Below, one piece after another: positions 33,104-40,794 of a stretch of 64,000 nucleotides of DNA. Both the position numbers and the translations under genes were made by a program. A model generated the notes under the pieces. The model saw only the letters and a program-made list of their open reading frames with translations. It ran no database searches and was not told where the DNA came from. This DNA is from Methanofollis sp. W23 (GTDB lineage: Archaea; Halobacteriota; Methanomicrobia; Methanomicrobiales; Methanofollaceae). Numbering within the stretch: the stretch's first letter is position 1; each line of letters opens with the position of its first letter. The DNA is taken from positions 2,252,140 through 2,316,139 of the forward strand of contig NZ_JAGGMN010000001.1 of assembly GCF_017875325.1 (NCBI RefSeq), read 5' to 3'.

Positions 33104-33445
33104 TCACTCCCCCTCAAGGAACGAGAGCGCCCTGCCAGCTGCGGGGGTGAGCGAGTAAATGATCCAGGTGCCCTGCGGTTCGCCTGCGATCAACCCGGCC
33201 TTCTTGAGCACGTTGAGGTGATAGGAAAGGCGGGAGTCGGCGATCCCGAGTGTCTCCCTGATCACGCAGACACAGAGGGGGCCTGGAGCAAGGAGGATGA
33301 GGATCTTCAGACGCATCGGGTCGGCCAGGGCCTTGAACCGGCCAGAGAAAACTTCGAGCGTTTCATCATCAGGGAAGAGAGATCGAAGTCCTTCGATGCC
33401 GCCGATTGTTGCGAGGTCGTCTTCAAGAGGGTCAGGTATTGCCAT
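33104..33445 (-). CDS. ArsR-family metal/metalloid-responsive repressor
   Basis: A 113-residue winged-helix regulator of the ArsR/SmtB family. The core is FKALADPMRLKILILLAPGPLCVCVI, in which LCVC corresponds to the CxC metalloid-sensing element of ArsR; the recognition helix is in DSRLSYHLNVLKKAGLI, and the wing in GTWIIYSL. It is transcribed away from the Cys-rich peptide and permease genes, and the 95-bp spacer has two copies of ATTTCA-N8-TGAAA, one on each side of a CTATATAG box. It therefore probably represses itself and the permease operon, releasing DNA on binding As(III), Sb(III) or another thiophilic ligand. Ligand identity is inference. Confidence 0.9.
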   Translation of the reverse strand: MAIPDPLEDDLATIGGIEGLRSLFPDDETLEVFSGRFKALADPMRLKILILLAPGPLCVCVIRETLGIADSRLSYHLNVLKKAGLIAGEPQGTWIIYSLTPAAGRALSFLEGE

Positions 33446-33450
33446 GATCT

Positions 33451-33523
33451 ATTTCAAAATGATATGAAATGGTTACCTCTATATAGGTTCGGGCCATGAC
33501 AGTATTTCAACAATTGTTGAAAC
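33451..33523. promoter_or_regulatory. Divergent ArsR promoter-operator region
   Basis: The centre is CTATATAG (33479-33486), a palindromic TATA box able to drive transcription both ways. Left of it, 33451-33470 reads ATTTCA-N8-TGAAAT; right of it, 33504-33523 reads ATTTCA-N8-TGAAAC, within which TTTCAACAATTGTTGAAA is a perfect 18-bp palindrome. Each operator falls near the expected transcription start of its gene (about 25 nt from the TATA box), so bound repressor would block both. Equal half-site sequence and equal N8 spacing in the two copies make a chance match unlikely. Confidence 0.8.
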
Positions 33524-33540
33524 AACAGGAGTAGCGTATC

Positions 33541-33687
33541 ATGGACACACCAGAAAAGAAAGAGAAGAAATGCGGCATCATGGGAAAGATCATGGGAGCA
33601 CTGAAGTCCGAAGGGAGCGGCGGGTGCTGCTGTTGCGGGACGAAGATCGTGCCGAAGAGTGAGAAATCAGAAGAGAAGAACGAGTAA
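33541..33687 (+). CDS. Small cysteine-rich putative metal-binding peptide
   Basis: A 48-residue reading frame starting MDTPEKKEKKCGIMGKIMG, with a central GGCCCCGTKIV and a lysine/glutamate-rich tail. AGGAG lies at 33527-33531, 9 nt before the ATG, and the gene is first in the ArsR-controlled operon, 18 nt before a permease. Five cysteines in 48 residues, four consecutive, suggest a soft-metal or metalloid carrier or buffer that hands cargo to the permeases. Small Cys-cluster proteins of this kind occur beside permease genes in other methanogens, but no characterised homologue is known to me. Gene reality is supported by binding site, promoter and position. Confidence 0.75.
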   Translation: MDTPEKKEKKCGIMGKIMGALKSEGSGGCCCCGTKIVPKSEKSEEKNE

Positions 33688-33705
33688 CGGCACTGGAGCG
33701 GGAGC

Positions 33706-34629
33706 GTGGACTTCACATCAGCCATCACGACGGCCGCAGGGTTCTTCGCCGTCATCACTGCAGAACTCGTCCTTCTCTTCATCGGGATCTCCTTCCTGGT
33801 CGGACTCATCCATGAGTACGTCCCTGAAGAGCGGATGCGGCGGGTGCTTGCAGGCCGCGGCCACGGTGCAGGCAATTTCATCGGCGCGGGCTTCGGGGCA
33901 CTCACCCCCTTCTGCTCGTGTTCCACGATCCCGATCCTCCTCGGCCTCCTGGACGCGTGCATCCCCTTCGGGGTGTGCATGTCCTTCCTCATCGCCTCGC
34001 CCCTCCTCAACCCGGTCATCCTCTCCCTCCTCGTGGCTCTGGTCGGCGTCGCCCCGACCGCCATCTACGCCGGGATCACCTTCCTGGCGGCGGCCGTGCT
34101 CGGCGCCCTCCTCGGGAAACTTGGGTACGAGCGGCATGTCAAAGACGTGATGGTGGAGCGGGACGGGGAGGAGGCATGCGCCTGCGCAACAGGGAACGGC
34201 CATGGCCCCAGGGTCAGGCGGGCACTCACCTTCTCGCTCTCACTCTTCCGCCATGTCCTCCCGTACCTCGTCCTTGGCGCCGGGATCGGGGCGTTCATCT
34301 ACGGGTTCGTCCCCGAAGACCTCATCGTCAACCTCGCCGGCCCTGAGAATCCCCTCGCCATCCCGGCCGCGGCCCTCATCGGGATCCCGATGTACATCAG
34401 GGCCGAGACGATCATCCCGATCTCGGCCGTGCTCCTGACAAAGGGGATGGGTATCGGGGCGGTGATGGCCCTGATCATCGGTGGGGCCGGGGCAAGCATC
34501 CCTGAGGTGACCCTGCTCTCGGCGATCTTCGAACGGCGCCTGGTCGGCGTCTTCGTCGGGGTAATCCTCACCGTCGCCATCGTCACCGGTATCGGCTTCT
34601 CCTTCCTCGCGGCAGGAGGAGTGTTCTAA
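33706..34629 (+). CDS. ArsP-type permease (DUF318), first copy
   Basis: A 307-residue polytopic protein of the predicted permease family that includes the organoarsenical exporter ArsP. About eight to ten membrane segments; the diagnostic motif TPFCSCSTIPILLGLL (about residues 66-81) has the CSC group, and a second half repeat contains PMYIRAETIIPISAVLLTKG. A cytosolic loop between halves carries ACACATGNGHG, another possible thiol ligand. It starts at GTG (33706), with GGAG just upstream. Second gene of the ArsR-controlled operon; the next permease follows after 34 nt. Transport of trivalent or methylated arsenic, or of a metal-thiol adduct, is inferred from family and repressor. Confidence 0.85.
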   Translation: MDFTSAITTAAGFFAVITAELVLLFIGISFLVGLIHEYVPEERMRRVLAGRGHGAGNFIGAGFGALTPFCSCSTIPILLGLLDACIPFGVCMSFLIASPLLNPVILSLLVALVGVAPTAIYAGITFLAAAVLGALLGKLGYERHVKDVMVERDGEEACACATGNGHGPRVRRALTFSLSLFRHVLPYLVLGAGIGAFIYGFVPEDLIVNLAGPENPLAIPAAALIGIPMYIRAETIIPISAVLLTKGMGIGAVMALIIGGAGASIPEVTLLSAIFERRLVGVFVGVILTVAIVTGIGFSFLAAGGVF

Positions 34630-34663
34630 AAAAACAGAGACAGAACCAGGAGAGAAAACAGTC

Positions 34664-35731
34664 ATGATAGACCCCATTACGGGCGCCCTCCTTGCAGGCG
34701 CCGACACGCTTATCGGTTATCTTGCAGAGCACGTCATCACCTGTCTGATCCCAGCCTTCTTCATCGCGGGGGCGATCGCCGCCTTCGTGAAGAAGGACGC
34801 GATCCTGAAGTACTTCAGTCCTGACGCCAAGAAGAGCGTCAGTTACGGGATCGCATCGGTCTCAGGGACGGTGCTCGCCGTCTGCTCGTGTACGATCCTC
34901 CCGATGTTCGCCGGGATATACAAGAAAGGGAGTGGCATCGGCCCGGCGGTCACCTTCCTGTACGCCGGCCCGGCGATCAACGTGCTGGCGATCATCTACA
35001 CCGCAAAAGTGCTCGGCTTCGATCTCGGCCTTGCCAGGGCGGTCTCGGCCGTGCTCCTTGCCATCGTCATCGGCCTCATCATGGCGGCGATCTTCAGGAG
35101 GCACGACGAGAACGTGAGGGCGACGGCACCGGCACGGTCCTACGGGAACGGCGATGACGAGCGGCCGCGCTGGGCGACCCTCGGGTTCTTCGCCGCACTC
35201 GTCGGCATCCTCATCGTCGGGGCCTCGCAACTTCCCTGGACGATCAAGTTCCCGGTGGTGTACCTCCTCACTCTCGCCGTCGCCGTCCTGCTCATCTACT
35301 TCTTCGAGCGCGACGAGGTGACCGACTGGGGCTACGAGACCTGGGACCTGGCAAAGAAGATCTTTCCCATCCTGCTGATCGGTACCTTTGCCCTGGGGAT
35401 GCTCGCCTACTTCCTCCCGCCCGAGACCTTTGCCCCGTACTTCGGGGAGACCTCGATCTACTCGACCCTGCTGGCGGCCCTGGTCGGCGGGATCCTGTAC
35501 ATGCCCACCCTCCTGGAGGTGCCGATCATCGGCACGACCTTCGGCTACACCTCAGGCGTGATGGCCGGCGGTCCCGCGCTCGCCCTCCTCCTTGCCGGAC
35601 CGAGCGTGAGTCTGCCCTCGCTGATGGTCATCTACCGGGTGATGGGGGCGAAGAAGACGGCGGTGTACGCCGTGCTCGTCATCCTCTTCTCGGCCCTGGC
35701 CGGGTTGGTGTACGGGACCATCGTGGGGTGA
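34664..35731 (+). CDS. ArsP-type permease (DUF318), second copy
   Basis: A 355-residue permease of the same family as the gene before it but diverged: the motif is LAVCSCTILPMFAGIYKKG (about residues 67-85), and a second half carries PTLLEVPIIGTTFGYTSGVMAGGPA. A charged loop (RRHDENVRATAPARSYGNGDDERPR) separates the halves. AGGAGAG lies 11 nt before the ATG. The two permeases may work as separate transporters or as a heteromer; tandem pairs of this type are seen in other methanogens. Last gene of the ArsR-controlled unit, ending at a repeat tract. Confidence 0.85.
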   Translation: MIDPITGALLAGADTLIGYLAEHVITCLIPAFFIAGAIAAFVKKDAILKYFSPDAKKSVSYGIASVSGTVLAVCSCTILPMFAGIYKKGSGIGPAVTFLYAGPAINVLAIIYTAKVLGFDLGLARAVSAVLLAIVIGLIMAAIFRRHDENVRATAPARSYGNGDDERPRWATLGFFAALVGILIVGASQLPWTIKFPVVYLLTLAVAVLLIYFFERDEVTDWGYETWDLAKKIFPILLIGTFALGMLAYFLPPETFAPYFGETSIYSTLLAALVGGILYMPTLLEVPIIGTTFGYTSGVMAGGPALALLLAGPSVSLPSLMVIYRVMGAKKTAVYAVLVILFSALAGLVYGTIVG

Positions 35732-36111
35732 AGAGATGATGAAGGCATTCCAGAACGCTCAGAGGTCTGACCAACCGCTCGACCGGGGCGCTTCCTCCAA
35801 GGAATTAAGGACAGATATCTCCCGTCTGGGGGGCGAGTGCCCCGATCATCACGCCTTCCCTCACCACCACGCCGCGGGCGCTGCCCCCGGACCCCTGGGA
35901 TTACGATGAGGTCGGGAAGGCAGAATGGATGATCATGATGGGTGTGTTGCAGTCCTCGGCCGATCGTGTGGTGGGGGGACCGGGGGGCGGCCAGCCCCCC
36001 CGGAGGAGAGGGCCATCAAGAGGAATTCTTCAGAGCCATGCGATTAGAATTCCTGGAAGGAAACGCTTCAGGTGCAAGGCAGTAACCTCAGATCATTTGG
36101 GGAGATGTTCT
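35732..36111. repeat. Intergenic repeat tract within the permease/thiol-protein region
   Basis: An intact R1 element (35853-35921, 69 bp), an inverted R2-type piece (about 35995-36040) and an R4 half (about 36048-36080, AGAATTCCTGGAAGGAAACGCTTCAGGTGCAAG split over that span). It separates the two permease genes from the three thiol-protein genes, which otherwise look like one functional group. No TATA-like box is obvious before the next gene. Confidence 0.65.
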
Positions 36112-36381
36112 ATGAAAGAAGACAAACCATGCTGTGCAGCAGAGGCCCTCAGACGCATCAGACAGGTGGACGTCGGGGGGATCGTCGTCGGGCTCTCGAT
36201 GCTTGACACGGTGATCGCGGACGTGAAAGCGCTCGGGATCACCGCGGAGTCCAGACTCACCGAAGAACTGGTGACGCGGGCGAAGATCTACAACTATATC
36301 CCGAAGAGCGCGGAGACGATATATGGCGAAGCGCTCCTCGAAATCTATCAGAAAGAGGTGAAGAACCATGGTAACAATTGA
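36112..36381 (+). CDS. Small conserved protein with N-terminal CC, unknown function
   Basis: An 89-residue protein starting MKEDKPCCAAEALRRIRQVD. The CC pair near the N-terminus is followed by a predominantly helical region (VGLSMLDTVIADVKALG, LTEELVTRAKIYNYIPKSAETIYGEALLEIY). I recognise it as a type of small methanogen protein that accompanies thioredoxin and permease genes, but know no function for it. The ATG at 36112 has GGGGAG 8 nt upstream; the frame is open further upstream only through repeats. The gene overlaps the thioredoxin start by 14 nt. A metal/thiol sensor or carrier is a guess. Confidence 0.75.
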   Translation: MKEDKPCCAAEALRRIRQVDVGGIVVGLSMLDTVIADVKALGITAESRLTEELVTRAKIYNYIPKSAETIYGEALLEIYQKEVKNHGNN

Positions 36382-36610
36382 AGTGTTTGGCACAGGCTGT
36401 GCAAAGTGCAAGCGGACGGCAAAGAATGTGGAGAAAGCGGTGGCCGAGATGGGGATCGAGGCCGAGGTGGTCAAGATCGAGGAGATCAACGCGATCACCG
36501 ACCGCGGCGTCCTCCTCACCCCGGCGCTTGCGGTCAACGGCGAGATGAAGGTCGAGGGCCGTGTCCCGACCGTCGACGAGGTCAAGGAGATCCTCTCGGA
36601 GGCGGCCTGA
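36368..36610 (+). CDS. Thioredoxin-fold small disulfide protein
   Basis: An 80-residue, minimal thioredoxin-like protein with active-site motif TGCAKCKRTAKNVEKAV (CxxC at about residues 11-14) and a cis-proline position in LLTPALAVNGEMKVEG. It matches the short archaeal redox-active disulfide proteins (MTH895-like) rather than full-length thioredoxin. Its start lies inside the preceding gene (14-nt overlap), and its stop overlaps the next ATG (TGATG), so the three genes are coupled. Likely reduces a partner disulfide or carries a thiol-bound ligand. Thioredoxin-dependent ArsC lies 3 kb away and could be a client, though this is speculation. Confidence 0.85.
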   Translation: MVTIEVFGTGCAKCKRTAKNVEKAVAEMGIEAEVVKIEEINAITDRGVLLTPALAVNGEMKVEGRVPTVDEVKEILSEAA

Positions 36611-37080
36611 TGGCAGAGTGCGGGTGCGCCTGCGGCGGCGGCGAGGGCGAGGGGCCGAAGCGGATCATCTTCCCCTGCGCCGGCGCCGCCAATGTCGGGC
36701 AGATCACCAACCTCGCCGCGATCCAACTCGCGGCTGAGGGGTTCGGCAGTCCGGCCTGCACGGCGCAGCTCGCCACCGGCGCGGGCCCGGTGAAGACGAA
36801 GTGTACAGAGGCCGACGAGGTCGTTGTCCTCGACGGGTGCCCGGCCGCCTGCGCCTCGAAGATCGCCGAGGCCCAGGGGGTCGCGGTCGACCAGACGGTC
36901 ATCGTCACCGAAGAAGGGGTCGCCAAATCCCATGACCTCAATATCGCGGATGATGAGATCGAGTGCATTGTCTCCGCCGTCTGGGAGGGGAAGGGCAAAC
37001 AAGGAAAAGAAGAGAAGAAAGACCCCGACGCCCAGGCAGGGCCCTGTGGATGCGGGTGTGGGTGCGGCGACGAAGAGTGA
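36610..37080 (+). CDS. DGC-type putative zinc-binding protein
   Basis: A 156-residue cysteine-rich protein. The N-terminus is ECGCACGGGEGEG; the core contains RIIFPCAGAANVGQITNLAAI, TKCTEADEVVVLDGCPAAC and IECIVSAVW, features of the DGC-domain family (named for an Asp-Gly-Cys motif, here LDGCPAAC), annotated as putative zinc-binding. The C-terminal tail adds GPCGCGCGCGDEE, unusual in its density of cysteine and clearly a possible metal tether. More than a dozen cysteines in total. Last gene of the coupled three-gene unit. A role in binding the same thiophilic cargo as the neighbouring permeases is inference. Confidence 0.8.
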   Translation: MAECGCACGGGEGEGPKRIIFPCAGAANVGQITNLAAIQLAAEGFGSPACTAQLATGAGPVKTKCTEADEVVVLDGCPAACASKIAEAQGVAVDQTVIVTEEGVAKSHDLNIADDEIECIVSAVWEGKGKQGKEEKKDPDAQAGPCGCGCGCGDEE

Positions 37081-38147
37081 GAGCGAGAGTGAGCCTCGAA
37101 GGCCGCGACGATACCTGGGAGAGAAGAAAAATCGCCTCGGTAGGACTCTTCAGGATGGAGATCTCTGATGGGGGTGTGCCGTCTCGATCGCGCCGGGGGT
37201 GCAGCCCGCAAGCACGATAGATCGAGGATGGCAGCACTCTTGTCACAGTTGCCCATAATGTCTTCTCGCCTCTATCTTCCTCTCGGGGTTCCAGGCGGCA
37301 CTCGCCCCCGGCGGGAGGCTATGAGAAGGCGGATGACACGCATTCTCTCCACACATGGGTGAGGGTTTACCATGGGCATATCTCAAAACTCCCTGTGGCT
37401 TGAACATCGTCTTGAACCGAAGTCATCACTTTCTGGAGTTCTAAGCCCAATCCTCGACCGGGGGGCTCGCCGCCCCCCGAAACCCCCGCTGATGAAGAGT
37501 GGCGGGGGTTCGCATCCCGTCGTCACGATCATCACTCTGCCTTCCTGTCCCAATTACCATGCCGGGATCTGAGGGCAGAGTCTCCGGCACGCATGGTATG
37601 AGGAATGGAGCTTCTTTGTGTGACGAAGAGGCGAAGACCGCCCCACTGTCTCTACTGATATATTCTGGGAAAGGGAGGGCTGGAGAATTTTGGGATGATC
37701 TCCATAAAAATGATCCTGACGTTCAATTCTGGAGTTATAGATGAGAATTCGAAGATACAGATCCCCCTTATAACTGATATGCAGAGAATAAAACCGTCCT
37801 CAGAACGATCAGGCTCTCTGCCTTCCCATCCCTATCTTCGTCTCAGGGGTCCGGGTCCGGGGGCAGAGCCCTCGGCGAGAAGATGGAGGAAGGCGTGATT
37901 ATCAGGCGTGCCGCCTTCAATCGTAGAATTCCTGCTCCGAAGAGGAAGCAAGGATCCACTCACCAGAGACCAACAAGAATTTTCATCGCGTATGCGTGAA
38001 ACGCAGGTTCATGGTGAATTCTACATGGTCGAAAAGTCGGCTCTGTAGATCCTCTCACATATTCTTGGGGTGACCGTGCCTTGCCTGCCGTCCCAGGCCC
38101 CCTCACCAGGGGCAGGTTGATACCCGCGGGGACCCACATCCCCGGGC
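37081..38147. repeat. Intergenic repeat tract, 1.07 kb
   Basis: The longest gene-free stretch. It holds an R4 (about 37375-37440, ATATCTCAAAACTCCC to CTTTCTGGAGTTCT), a partial R1 (about 37538-37595), an inverted R4 half (about 37675-37700), an R1 with a duplicated GGTCCGG (about 37815-37895), an R5 end (about 37910-37930) and an inverted R3 (about 37985-38035, TGAAACGCAGGTTCATGG). ORFs across it are repeat translations. No promoter for the next gene was identified. Confidence 0.65.
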
Positions 38148-39041
38148 ATGCCGTTCAGGAAGGGCGACGAACGAGCGGCCCTGAAGGTCGCCGTCGTCCT
38201 CACCACCGGGTTTCTCGTGGTCGAGGCGGTGGCCGGGGTGCTCTCGGGCTCGCTCGCTCTCATCGGAGACGCCGGACACATGTTCAGGGACGTCCTCGCC
38301 CTCCTCCTCTCCCTGGGTGCGGTGGTCATCGCCGAACGTCTGCCCACCAGGAGGCGGACCTGGGGGTATCACCGGGTCGAAGTCTTTGTCGCCCTCGTCA
38401 ACGGAACTCTTCTCATCGTCCTCGCGGGCACGGTCATCTGGGAGGCGTTCAGGCGCCTTGCCGATCCGGTCCCGGTCGCCGGTCCCCTGATGGCCGCAGT
38501 GGGGGTGGTCGGGCTTGTGGTGAACCTTTATGTCGCCTGGAGACTCCACGGGGCAGAGGACCTCAATGTCCGCAGCGCCTATCTCCATGTCGTCGGCGAC
38601 ACCCTCTCCTCGGTGGCGGTCGTCGTGGCCGCCGCCTGGATCGCGGTGACCGATCAGACGATCGTCGACCCCCTCCTCAGCATCGGGATCGCCCTTGTGA
38701 TCCTTGCCGGGTCGGTCTCGCTCCTGCGAGAGACCGTAGGGATCCTTCTCCAGTTCGTGCCCAGAGGGATCGACTTCGACGAGGTGGTGATGGCGATGGA
38801 GTCTGTGGACGGCGTCGAGGAGGTCCATAACATCCACCTCTGGGCCCTTTGCTCGCACATCAATGTTCTCGACGCCCATGTCGTCGCCTGTACCGATGAG
38901 ATCGCAAAGATCGAGGAGATCAAGGCGGAGATCAAACAGAGGTTGAGAGAGTTTGATGTCCAGTACAGCATCCTTGAGTTCGAGCAAGAACCCTGTCCTG
39001 AATCTGCGCTGCTTCGGAGGGTGAAGGGGAAGGGGGAGTGA
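38148..39041 (+). CDS. Cation diffusion facilitator (CDF) metal exporter
   Basis: A 297-residue CDF-family transporter with six predicted helices and a C-terminal cytoplasmic metallochaperone-like domain (VDGVEEVHNIHLWALCSH, about 222-239). Metal-site residues sit in helix 2, LIGDAGHMFRDVLAL (HxxxD), and helix 5, AYLHVVGDTLSSV (HxxxD), a pattern typical of Zn/Co/Cd exporters, although the helix 2 motif begins with Gly rather than Ser. It exports divalent metal in exchange for protons. Upstream is a repeat tract with no good binding site at this ATG, so the exact start is tentative. It lies between the thiol-protein operon and arsC. Confidence 0.88.
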   Translation: MPFRKGDERAALKVAVVLTTGFLVVEAVAGVLSGSLALIGDAGHMFRDVLALLLSLGAVVIAERLPTRRRTWGYHRVEVFVALVNGTLLIVLAGTVIWEAFRRLADPVPVAGPLMAAVGVVGLVVNLYVAWRLHGAEDLNVRSAYLHVVGDTLSSVAVVVAAAWIAVTDQTIVDPLLSIGIALVILAGSVSLLRETVGILLQFVPRGIDFDEVVMAMESVDGVEEVHNIHLWALCSHINVLDAHVVACTDEIAKIEEIKAEIKQRLREFDVQYSILEFEQEPCPESALLRRVKGKGE

Positions 39042-39520
39042 GGAGTGGTGACAGGGGCGAAGCTCTCGGGTGCGAGGATGTGGGATGGCGTGTGTTCTGA
39101 AGCCTTGAGCGGGGGGAGGTGAGAGATCAGAGGGCCGCCCCATTGAAAGATTTTCACTGTCGTCTCGCGCCGGGGGGCGAGTGCCCCCCGGAGCCCCCCA
39201 CGGGGAGAGGGGAGGCGGGGGCGGCAATGGGCGTGTTCTTCATTTGCTGTTCTGTTGTGATGTGAGTGATCGGGATCTTCGATGTGGCCTTCCCACCCCA
39301 ATCGCAATCCTTGGGGTCCGGGGGCAGAGCCCCCGGCGCGATTGATTGAGGAAGGCGCACGGTTCACGTTCAAAACAGGAAAAAGCATGGGATCAAAAAG
39401 GTCGCCCCCACCGCAGGAGAGGGATACTGCTCTCTTCCCCCGGGAAGGCGGCGCGGGTTGATGTTCTCTTCAGGATCGTTTGCTCAGGAACGGTACCCCC
39501 GCCTCTTCCGGCGCACCGAC
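39042..39520. repeat. Intergenic repeat tract
   Basis: An R5 piece with inverted G-rich stretch (about 39125-39205) and an intact R1 (39287-39356, 70 bp, GGGGGCAGAGCCCCCGGCGCG core). It separates the convergent CDF and arsC genes. No gene seen. Confidence 0.65.
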
Positions 39521-39925
39521 TCACCCGAACCGCCCGTCGATCCACCTCGTGATCTCGTCTCTCACCCCCCTGAACCCGTCGAGCACCTCCTCCTCGTTCC
39601 TGGTAAAGGCCCGCGGGTCAGGGAACGCCTCATGGATGACGGTCTTTGCCCAGGGGAACATCGGGCAAATCCCACCCTCGCAGACGGTCACGACGGTGTC
39701 CATCTCCTGCTGAAAATAGACCGAGAGAGGCTTCGTCTCCTGGCCCGAGAGGTCGACCCCGATCTCGGCCATCACCGCCACGGCCCTGGGATCGACCTCC
39801 TCGGCCGTGGCGGTGCCGGCAGAATAGACCTCGTAGCGTTCGCCATACCGCGCCCTCAGATACCCTTCGGCCATCTGGGAGCGGGCGGCATTGTGGGTGC
39901 AGATGAAGAGCACCTTCTCTTTCAT
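39521..39925 (-). CDS. arsC: Arsenate reductase, thioredoxin-coupled LMW-phosphatase type
   Basis: A 134-residue protein with the low-molecular-weight phosphatase loop LFICTHNAARSQMAEG: catalytic Cys near residue 9, NAARS replacing the usual NxCRS. The resolving cysteines appear in VVTVCEGGICPMF (about 80-92), as in Staphylococcus-type ArsC, so thioredoxin is the expected reductant. It reduces arsenate to arsenite for export. The arsenite sensor-type ArsR and ArsP-type permeases lie 5-6 kb upstream on the other strand, supporting a scattered arsenic-response region. The ATG has GGGGTG upstream. A tyrosine phosphatase role is possible but the second cysteine pair argues against it. Confidence 0.9.
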   Translation of the reverse strand: MKEKVLFICTHNAARSQMAEGYLRARYGERYEVYSAGTATAEEVDPRAVAVMAEIGVDLSGQETKPLSVYFQQEMDTVVTVCEGGICPMFPWAKTVIHEAFPDPRAFTRNEEEVLDGFRGVRDEITRWIDGRFG

Positions 39926-40794
39926 GCACCCCGCGTGTCCGGGCCCTGATATAAAGGCTGTGGAGAAATGTCCTGAAGAAGATCATTTGCAATCCCCAGG
40001 ATCGTAAGAGAACAAAAAAAGAGAGGGACGGGGAAGGACGGTCCCCCTCACCTCCCCCACGCTGGATGAACTGGTTCTGTAGAGTTCAGCATGAACCTCG
40101 CTCGGGCTTACGCATACCGAAAGAAAATTCGTGGTGGTCTCTGATGAGTGGATCCTTGTCCCCTCTTTGAGCAGGACACCCCATGGGACCACTAATTCAT
40201 TGCCGCTCCAGCCTCTCCTCACCCTGAGGGGACGACCAGAAGGAGTTTGAGAACAGAGGGAACTGAAGATTCCAGATGATAGGAAGATCGGCCCTGTAGA
40301 AACCCTTACCAATTCTCGGTGCGAGCGCTATCCATCCGCCTTCCCCTATCTTCTCGCCGGGGGCGCTGCCCCCGGACCCCCTGGATTGAAGATAGGGCTG
40401 GGAAGGCACATTCGTTGAACATGAAGTGAGTATTGCCATCCCCCGCCTCTCGAATCGCGCCGGGGGACCGGGGGCGGCACGCCCCCCGCAGAGATAATCA
40501 TCAAGAACATTTCTACAAAGCCGGAAGATCTTTGATCTTCCGTGGATCTCTGATTTTCGAGTTCCGAGGGGTCGCCCCCGGTGCGAGATTACGGGAATGG
40601 TTCTACGATAAGAGCAGCACATCTTCCCACACGTTTACGCCGGGGGACGATAGGGTCGGGAAGGTAGAATAGATGACCATGACGGGTATGGTGCCGTCCT
40701 CGTCCTCTCGTACGGCGGGGGTCCGGGGGGCGGAAAGCCCCCTGCCAGAGAGATTCATCAAGCGGATTTCAACAGAACCAATAAACCCTTATTT
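39926..40794. repeat. Intergenic repeat tract
   Basis: Densely packed: an R3 (40076-40135, AGCATGAACCTCGCTCGGGCTT), an R2 start (about 40291-40310), an intact R1 (40338-40407, 70 bp), two inverted R2 copies (about 40480-40525 and 40738-40775), a nested palindrome (about 40524-40545, CGGAAGATCTTTGATCTTCCG) and an R5-like piece (about 40580-40620). No gene seen in 0.87 kb. Confidence 0.7.

Follow-up and report, generated by a model that had tools for sequence, protein, structure and literature searches.

A conserved Methanomicrobiales operon with twin permeases and cysteine-rich proteins as a probable ArsR-controlled arsenical-resistance system

Seven genes of Methanofollis sp. W23 form the core of an operon that is conserved across the order Methanomicrobiales and present in most genomes sampled. 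The genes lie within a 64-kb window (the whole stretch of DNA analysed) of this 2.9-Mb, 99.7% complete genome, and on balance we read them as an operon for arsenical resistance in methanogenic archaea that is controlled by ArsR. Computation revealed a conserved synteny in which ArsR is followed by an optional Cys4–permA cassette and by permB, CC, thioredoxin and DGC genes, a shared palindromic operator, and linkage to ACR3, ArsC, ArsF/ArsG and ferredoxin:thioredoxin reductase. An earlier note, made from the sequence of this DNA, had described the seven genes as a candidate chain for capturing, reducing and exporting a thiophilic compound. All seven open reading frames and their Cys motifs were indeed found in place, and every small gene proved to be conserved in relatives. 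In a Pfam/NCBIfam profile search, ArsR, both ArsP_1 permeases, the mini-thioredoxin and the DGC protein each scored above a curated cut-off; neither the Cys4 peptide nor the CC protein matched any Pfam or NCBIfam model. The features of the locus are:

33104..33445, minus strand: ArsR-family repressor, transcribed divergently from the operon; above the cut-offs of PF01022 and NF033788
33452..33469, no strand: candidate operator copy 1, TTTCAAAATGATATGAAA, with the TTTCAN8TGAAA pattern
33480..33485, no strand: TATATA, candidate archaeal TATA box between both operators, recognised by eye
33505..33522, no strand: candidate operator copy 2, perfect palindrome TTTCAACAATTGTTGAAA, 18 bp ahead of the Cys4 start
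33541..33687, plus strand: Cys4 peptide of 48 aa, GGCCCCGTKIVPK, containing GGCCCCGTK
33706..34629, plus strand: permA, ArsP_1 permease of 307 aa with a GTG start; PF03773; CSC motif C70/C72
34664..35731, plus strand: permB, ArsP_1 permease of 355 aa; PF03773; CSC motif C74/C76
35744..36111, no strand: dispersed-repeat insertion of 368 bp in the permB/CC gap, absent from siblings L053 and L054
36112..36381, plus strand: CC protein of 89 aa with KPCCAAEA (PCCAA motif); family conserved in relatives
36368..36610, plus strand: mini-thioredoxin (CAKC) of the MTH895/ArsE family; TIGR00412; 14-bp overlap with CC
36610..37080, plus strand: DGC-domain protein with an N-terminal CxCxC and a Cys-rich C-terminal tail; PF08859

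Among 120 Methanomicrobiales genomes, CC-type proteins were matched in 104, ArsP_1 permeases in 97, DGC proteins in 91 and mini-thioredoxins in 89. Some of the 104 CC-type matches represent a paralogue that aligns to positions 15–85 and misses the PCC region; neighbour counts were based on 76 near-full-length CC copies from 71 genomes and are lower bounds. A thioredoxin gene was located within 300 bp downstream of CC for at least 70 of these 76 copies (median gap, 6 bp), an ArsP_1 permease gene within 300 bp upstream for at least 62, and a DGC gene within 2.5 kb downstream for at least 64. The window copy itself misses the 300-bp permease limit owing to its 368-bp insertion. The earlier note had proposed that its candidate system would fall if the two halves of the locus (33.1–35.7 and 36.1–37.1 kb) rarely occurred together; the neighbourhood survey showed frequent co-occurrence, as most CC copies have thioredoxin, DGC and upstream ArsP-type permease genes nearby.

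Mapping of 39 loci (597 kb) placed ArsR divergently from a permB–CC–thioredoxin–DGC core, often accompanied by a second thioredoxin or DGC gene. As an optional cassette, the Cys4–permA pair, sometimes with a ferredoxin:thioredoxin reductase gene, occupies the space between ArsR and permB; in some loci it is found elsewhere with its own ArsR or adjoining ACR3. The Cys4 peptide was present in 19 of the 39 loci, in 18 of which it directly precedes permA or is separated from it by a ferredoxin:thioredoxin reductase gene alone. Thus, the genes do co-occur as the note had supposed for a single conserved system, but this system is not indivisible, since Cys4–permA is an option on the core. At L035, L036, L037, L060, L063 and L070, the Cys4 and permease genes flank a gene for the ferredoxin:thioredoxin reductase beta chain, which suggests a dedicated electron supply. 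In a second set of 80 named loci, gathered by DGC similarity and overlapping in species with the CC-copy set, thioredoxin was found 78 times, permB and CC 69 times each, and ArsR 64 times. Outside Methanomicrobiales, permB–thioredoxin–DGC recurs in other archaea of the phylum, where CC is rarer.

The genes surrounding these loci assign them to arsenic chemistry. Within 5 kb of 39 of the 76 CC copies there is an ACR3 gene, in every case downstream on the same strand, compared to about 0.4% per copy expected by random placement; a representative scored 448.6 bits against the TIGR00832 cut-off of 282.8. A recurrent CcdA-like protein has a representative above the ArsG cut-off, and representatives of a recurrent thioredoxin-like lipoprotein exceed that for ArsF. 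Within the 80 named loci, ACR3 occurred 41 times, ArsG-type genes 32, ArsF-type genes 31, ferredoxin:thioredoxin reductase 28 and ArsC 24 times. The CC/DGC loci are an arsenic-resistance island. The theme of thiol and metalloid chemistry that the note had put forward was therefore well chosen, given ACR3, ArsC, the ArsF/ArsG families, the ArsE-family thioredoxin and the LCVC motif of ArsR at these loci; these same features provide the place among known functions that the note had not assigned to the pathway. Related arsenic islands additionally contain genes for DUF2703 (L059:8847-9230), DUF169 (L063:12455-13222) and DUF166 (L068:8178-8873) proteins.

The regulator at the head of the operon is an ArsR/SmtB-type metalloregulator in that it exceeds the HTH_5 cut-off (PF01022; 50.2 vs. 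22 bits) and carries a CxC metal-site motif. Its only two cysteines, C58 and C60 in PLCVCVIR, are invariant in 41 of 41 relatives. ArsR4, which responds to methylarsenite (MAs(III)) and induces arsP, likewise has just two conserved cysteines (PMC9213503), a likeness in Cys number. The two-Cys make-up of the window protein is compatible with an arsenic-sensing ArsR. As a new candidate ArsR operator, we propose the 18-bp pattern TTTCA-N8-TGAAA. In the 64-kb window it occurs twice (0.00 expected from shuffles), both copies being located in the arsR/Cys4 intergenic promoter region at a spacing of 53 bp, with TATATA between them. Across the 39 loci, 50 of 62 sites lie beside arsR, and several of the others directly precede Cys4 or permB.

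With 100.8 bits against a TIGR00412 cut-off of 62, the mini-thioredoxin belongs to the MTH895/ArsE family, of which 1ILO (MtH895) is a solved relative; its CxxC (C11/C14) is retained in 39 of 39 sequences. P-C-C-A-A and N-Y-x-P are invariant in the CC family. A CC-family paralogue devoid of the PCC motif is encoded elsewhere in many methanogens, and one example (L043:11477-11797, minus strand) had no Pfam or NCBIfam match. The DGC protein possesses the DGCxxxC motif and reached 98.8 bits against PF08859 (cut-off, 27). In its core, C23, C77 and C81 are found in all of 130 archaeal and bacterial sequences and C50 in 80%. An AF2 model of this core, built from 125 sequences (five plasmid-record rows of the 130 were excluded), predicts an alpha/beta fold at a pLDDT of 96.7, with C23 and C77 directly after strands; it supersedes a model from 16 sequences alone (pLDDT 40). 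Foldseek returned no significant match (best E, 0.17 in PDB and 0.16 among viral models), so that the fold gave DGC no function. Likewise, profile searches of PDB sequences with DGC and CC found nothing, and a search of viral contigs returned no DGC relatives.

Further downstream, the window contains two genes that the earlier note had taken to extend the theme:

38148..39041, plus strand: CDF cation exporter, within an inverted block; TIGR01297
39521..39925, minus strand: ArsC-like LMWP-fold arsenate reductase with C9/C82/C87; closest solved relative 1JL3

This view was borne out, as both genes lie in the neighbourhood and directly follow the DGC genes in four same-genus siblings, there with CDF after ArsC. 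C9, C82 and C87 of the window ArsC align with cysteines of the arsenate reductase 1JL3; C9 and C87 recur in 23 of 23 relatives and C82 in 20 of 23, resulting in the catalytic Cys and later Cys pair of thioredoxin-type (pI258) ArsC. Relative to siblings L053 and L054, the window copy is rearranged. Its ArsC–CDF block (about 38104–39957) is inverted and flanked by a 58-nt inverted repeat (37940–37997 and 40110–40167), the second DGC gene of the siblings (111 aa) has been lost, and the 380-bp permB–CC spacing consists mostly of the inserted dispersed repeat. The core of this repeat exists in about 50 copies in the W23 genome (69–89% identity), and ATGAA may represent a 5-bp target duplication at the insertion. 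Elsewhere in the genome there are two ferredoxin:thioredoxin reductase matches, one of which has its matched frame interrupted by a stop codon.

Both permeases match PF03773 over a near-full profile (permA, 172.9 bits; permB, 243.2 bits; cut-off, 32.3). Their CSC motif is invariant (permA, 23/23; permB, 35/35), and permB retains C27, C74 and C76 in 35 of 35 sequences. A selenoprotein form of the SO_0444 exporter has UxC (PMC13188914), which points to a CxC-type functional site.

Several observations weigh against arsenical resistance, and the permeases supply one of them. SaoE and SO_0444, the only named exporter models that they match, have NCBIfam cut-offs of 300–325 bits, and the window proteins reach 88.9–97.4, meaning that homology does not set their substrate. 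An operon that exports thiophilic metals in general (Cu, Zn, Cd, Hg) and shares the arsenic island by chance, with SO_0444-like Cu/Zn exporters and DGC as a zinc protein, could draw on these very matches, on the CDF metal exporter nearby in window and siblings, and on the current annotation of DGC proteins as ‘putative zinc-binding protein’. However, the scores stay far under the cut-offs of both models, and CDF genes are scarce (7/39 mapped and 3/80 named loci), whereas ACR3, ArsC and ArsF/ArsG are frequent; we consider metal export unlikely.

On the same side of the balance, the window ArsC remains below curated cut-offs (TIGR02691: 98.2 vs. 174.3 bits), ACR3 is missing from the 5-kb surroundings of 37 of the 76 CC copies, and the twin permeases do not make up for this lack. 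Substitution of the pair for ACR3 was rejected, its presence being independent of ACR3 absence (17/28 vs. 28/45, p = 1). That permA–permB pairs are equally common with and without ACR3 also speaks against an operon for arsenite (As(III)) export, in which the ArsP-type pair would replace or back up ACR3. The W23 genome would be a case in point, as it has ArsC and ArsR yet no ACR3 match anywhere (ArsB was not searched there), and the cluster occurs without ACR3 in other genomes, too. Characterised ArsP, however, does not export inorganic arsenite (PMC6205960), and such an arsenite-export operon appears improbable to us.

The DGC family, finally, is not arsenic-specific, since its proteobacterial relatives adjoin nitrosative-stress genes (NnrS, hemerythrin, YtfE) and some archaeal DGC genes have no ars genes nearby. 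DGC proteins are encoded on plasmids of Klebsiella, Cupriavidus, Ideonella and Halarchaeum (L211–L215). In Cupriavidus pHG1 and Ideonella, genes for hemerythrin and U32 peptidase are close by, and nosZ (Cupriavidus) or NnrS, YtfE and NorR (Ideonella) are further neighbours, a setting that suggests a nitrosative-stress role there. Together with the linkage to ferredoxin:thioredoxin reductase and thioredoxin, the hemerythrin, NnrS and YtfE genes next to beta-proteobacterial DGC would suit an operon for thiol-redox or reactive-species repair, in which thioredoxin, DGC and CC mend oxidised or nitrosated protein thiols while sulfur compounds are carried by the permeases. We regard this as very unlikely: the methanogen operon has an ArsR-type regulator with a shared operator as well as arsenic-gene linkage, and among the gene families that recur next to the mapped methanogen loci, none was recognised as relating to oxidative or nitrosative stress.

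Under the arsenical-resistance reading, trivalent arsenic would bind at the CxC of ArsR and thereby free the operators around the promoter. Arsenate would be reduced by ArsC, which the mini-thioredoxin, itself supplied by ferredoxin:thioredoxin reductase, would re-reduce, keeping thiols and arsenicals reduced as well. DGC, CC and the Cys4 peptide may then bind the trivalent arsenical and hand it on to the CSC-motif permeases, which would expel trivalent, perhaps methylated, arsenic. Because many of these operons also encode ACR3, the substrates of the permeases are probably those that ACR3 leaves, most likely methylarsenite as a methyl-transfer by-product in methanogens; in the ACR3-less W23 genome they may export arsenite, too. 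Metalloid methylation is known as a side reaction of methanogens (PMC6205960). The carrier role suggested for DGC, CC and Cys4 follows from their Cys content and gene order, and the sequence of capture, reduction and export is conjecture. The three proteins are conserved accessories and probably represent new components of arsenic handling. More tentatively, and with considerable doubt, they might, as arsenical binders, join the ArsE-type thioredoxin in an archaeal relay that passes methanogenesis-derived methylarsenite to the permeases: a methanogen-specific self-detoxification system and functional counterpart of bacterial ArsD.

Since metalloid methylation is a by-product of their energy metabolism, the way in which methanogens survive trivalent organoarsenicals matters for the cycling of arsenic in paddy soils, sediments and digesters. 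The operon couples three protein families of unassigned role to a clear regulatory handle, the candidate ArsR operator, rendering this role directly testable. The open-access literature, to which our search was confined (subscription papers lay outside it), yielded no description of DGC, CC or Cys4 in arsenic resistance.

A known system related through its thioredoxin family is ArsEFG of Shewanella putrefaciens, reportedly the subject of a 2019 study by Chen, Zhang and Rosen that is cited in PMC9144182. The window mini-thioredoxin falls into the MTH895/ArsE family and ArsF/ArsG-family genes accompany about 40% of the named loci, with the functions of ArsE, ArsF and ArsG taken from NCBIfam names and citations. 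However, the window permeases are ArsP_1 rather than ArsG, and DGC, CC and Cys4 lie outside ArsEFG as named. The 64-kb window contains no ArsF- or ArsG-type gene and hence no ArsEFG system, although such genes are present at other methanogen loci.

The SAO/Tso selenoprotein operons (PMC13188914) resemble the locus in their thioredoxin-like and Cys-Cys proteins and in SaoE, which together with SO_0444 is the named model that the permeases come closest to. The window genes, by contrast, lack selenocysteine and the permeases are far short of the cut-off for SaoE. Among the seven genes there was no match to any other Sao/Tso family, TsoR being only a sub-threshold hit of ArsR, and identity with this system was dropped for want of its matching parts.

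That ars operons can include ArsP and are linked to this thioredoxin family is already published: in the passages available to us, Castillo and Saier (2010, PMC2963123) gave 61 ars operons as containing arsP and noted the co-occurrence of this family (‘redox-active disulfide protein 2’), CcdA-like proteins and arsC. Those passages mention neither DGC, CC and the Cys4 peptide nor a methanogen-wide operon. The closest counterpart in terms of transport is ArsP of Campylobacter jejuni (PMC6205960), which exports MAs(III) and trivalent roxarsone and coexists in the ars operon with ACR3 in a division of labour. As in that operon, the window permeases match PF03773, ArsR belongs to the operon and ACR3 lies nearby in relatives; what sets the methanogen locus apart are its two divergent tandem permease paralogues, which are tied to thioredoxin, DGC and CC genes.

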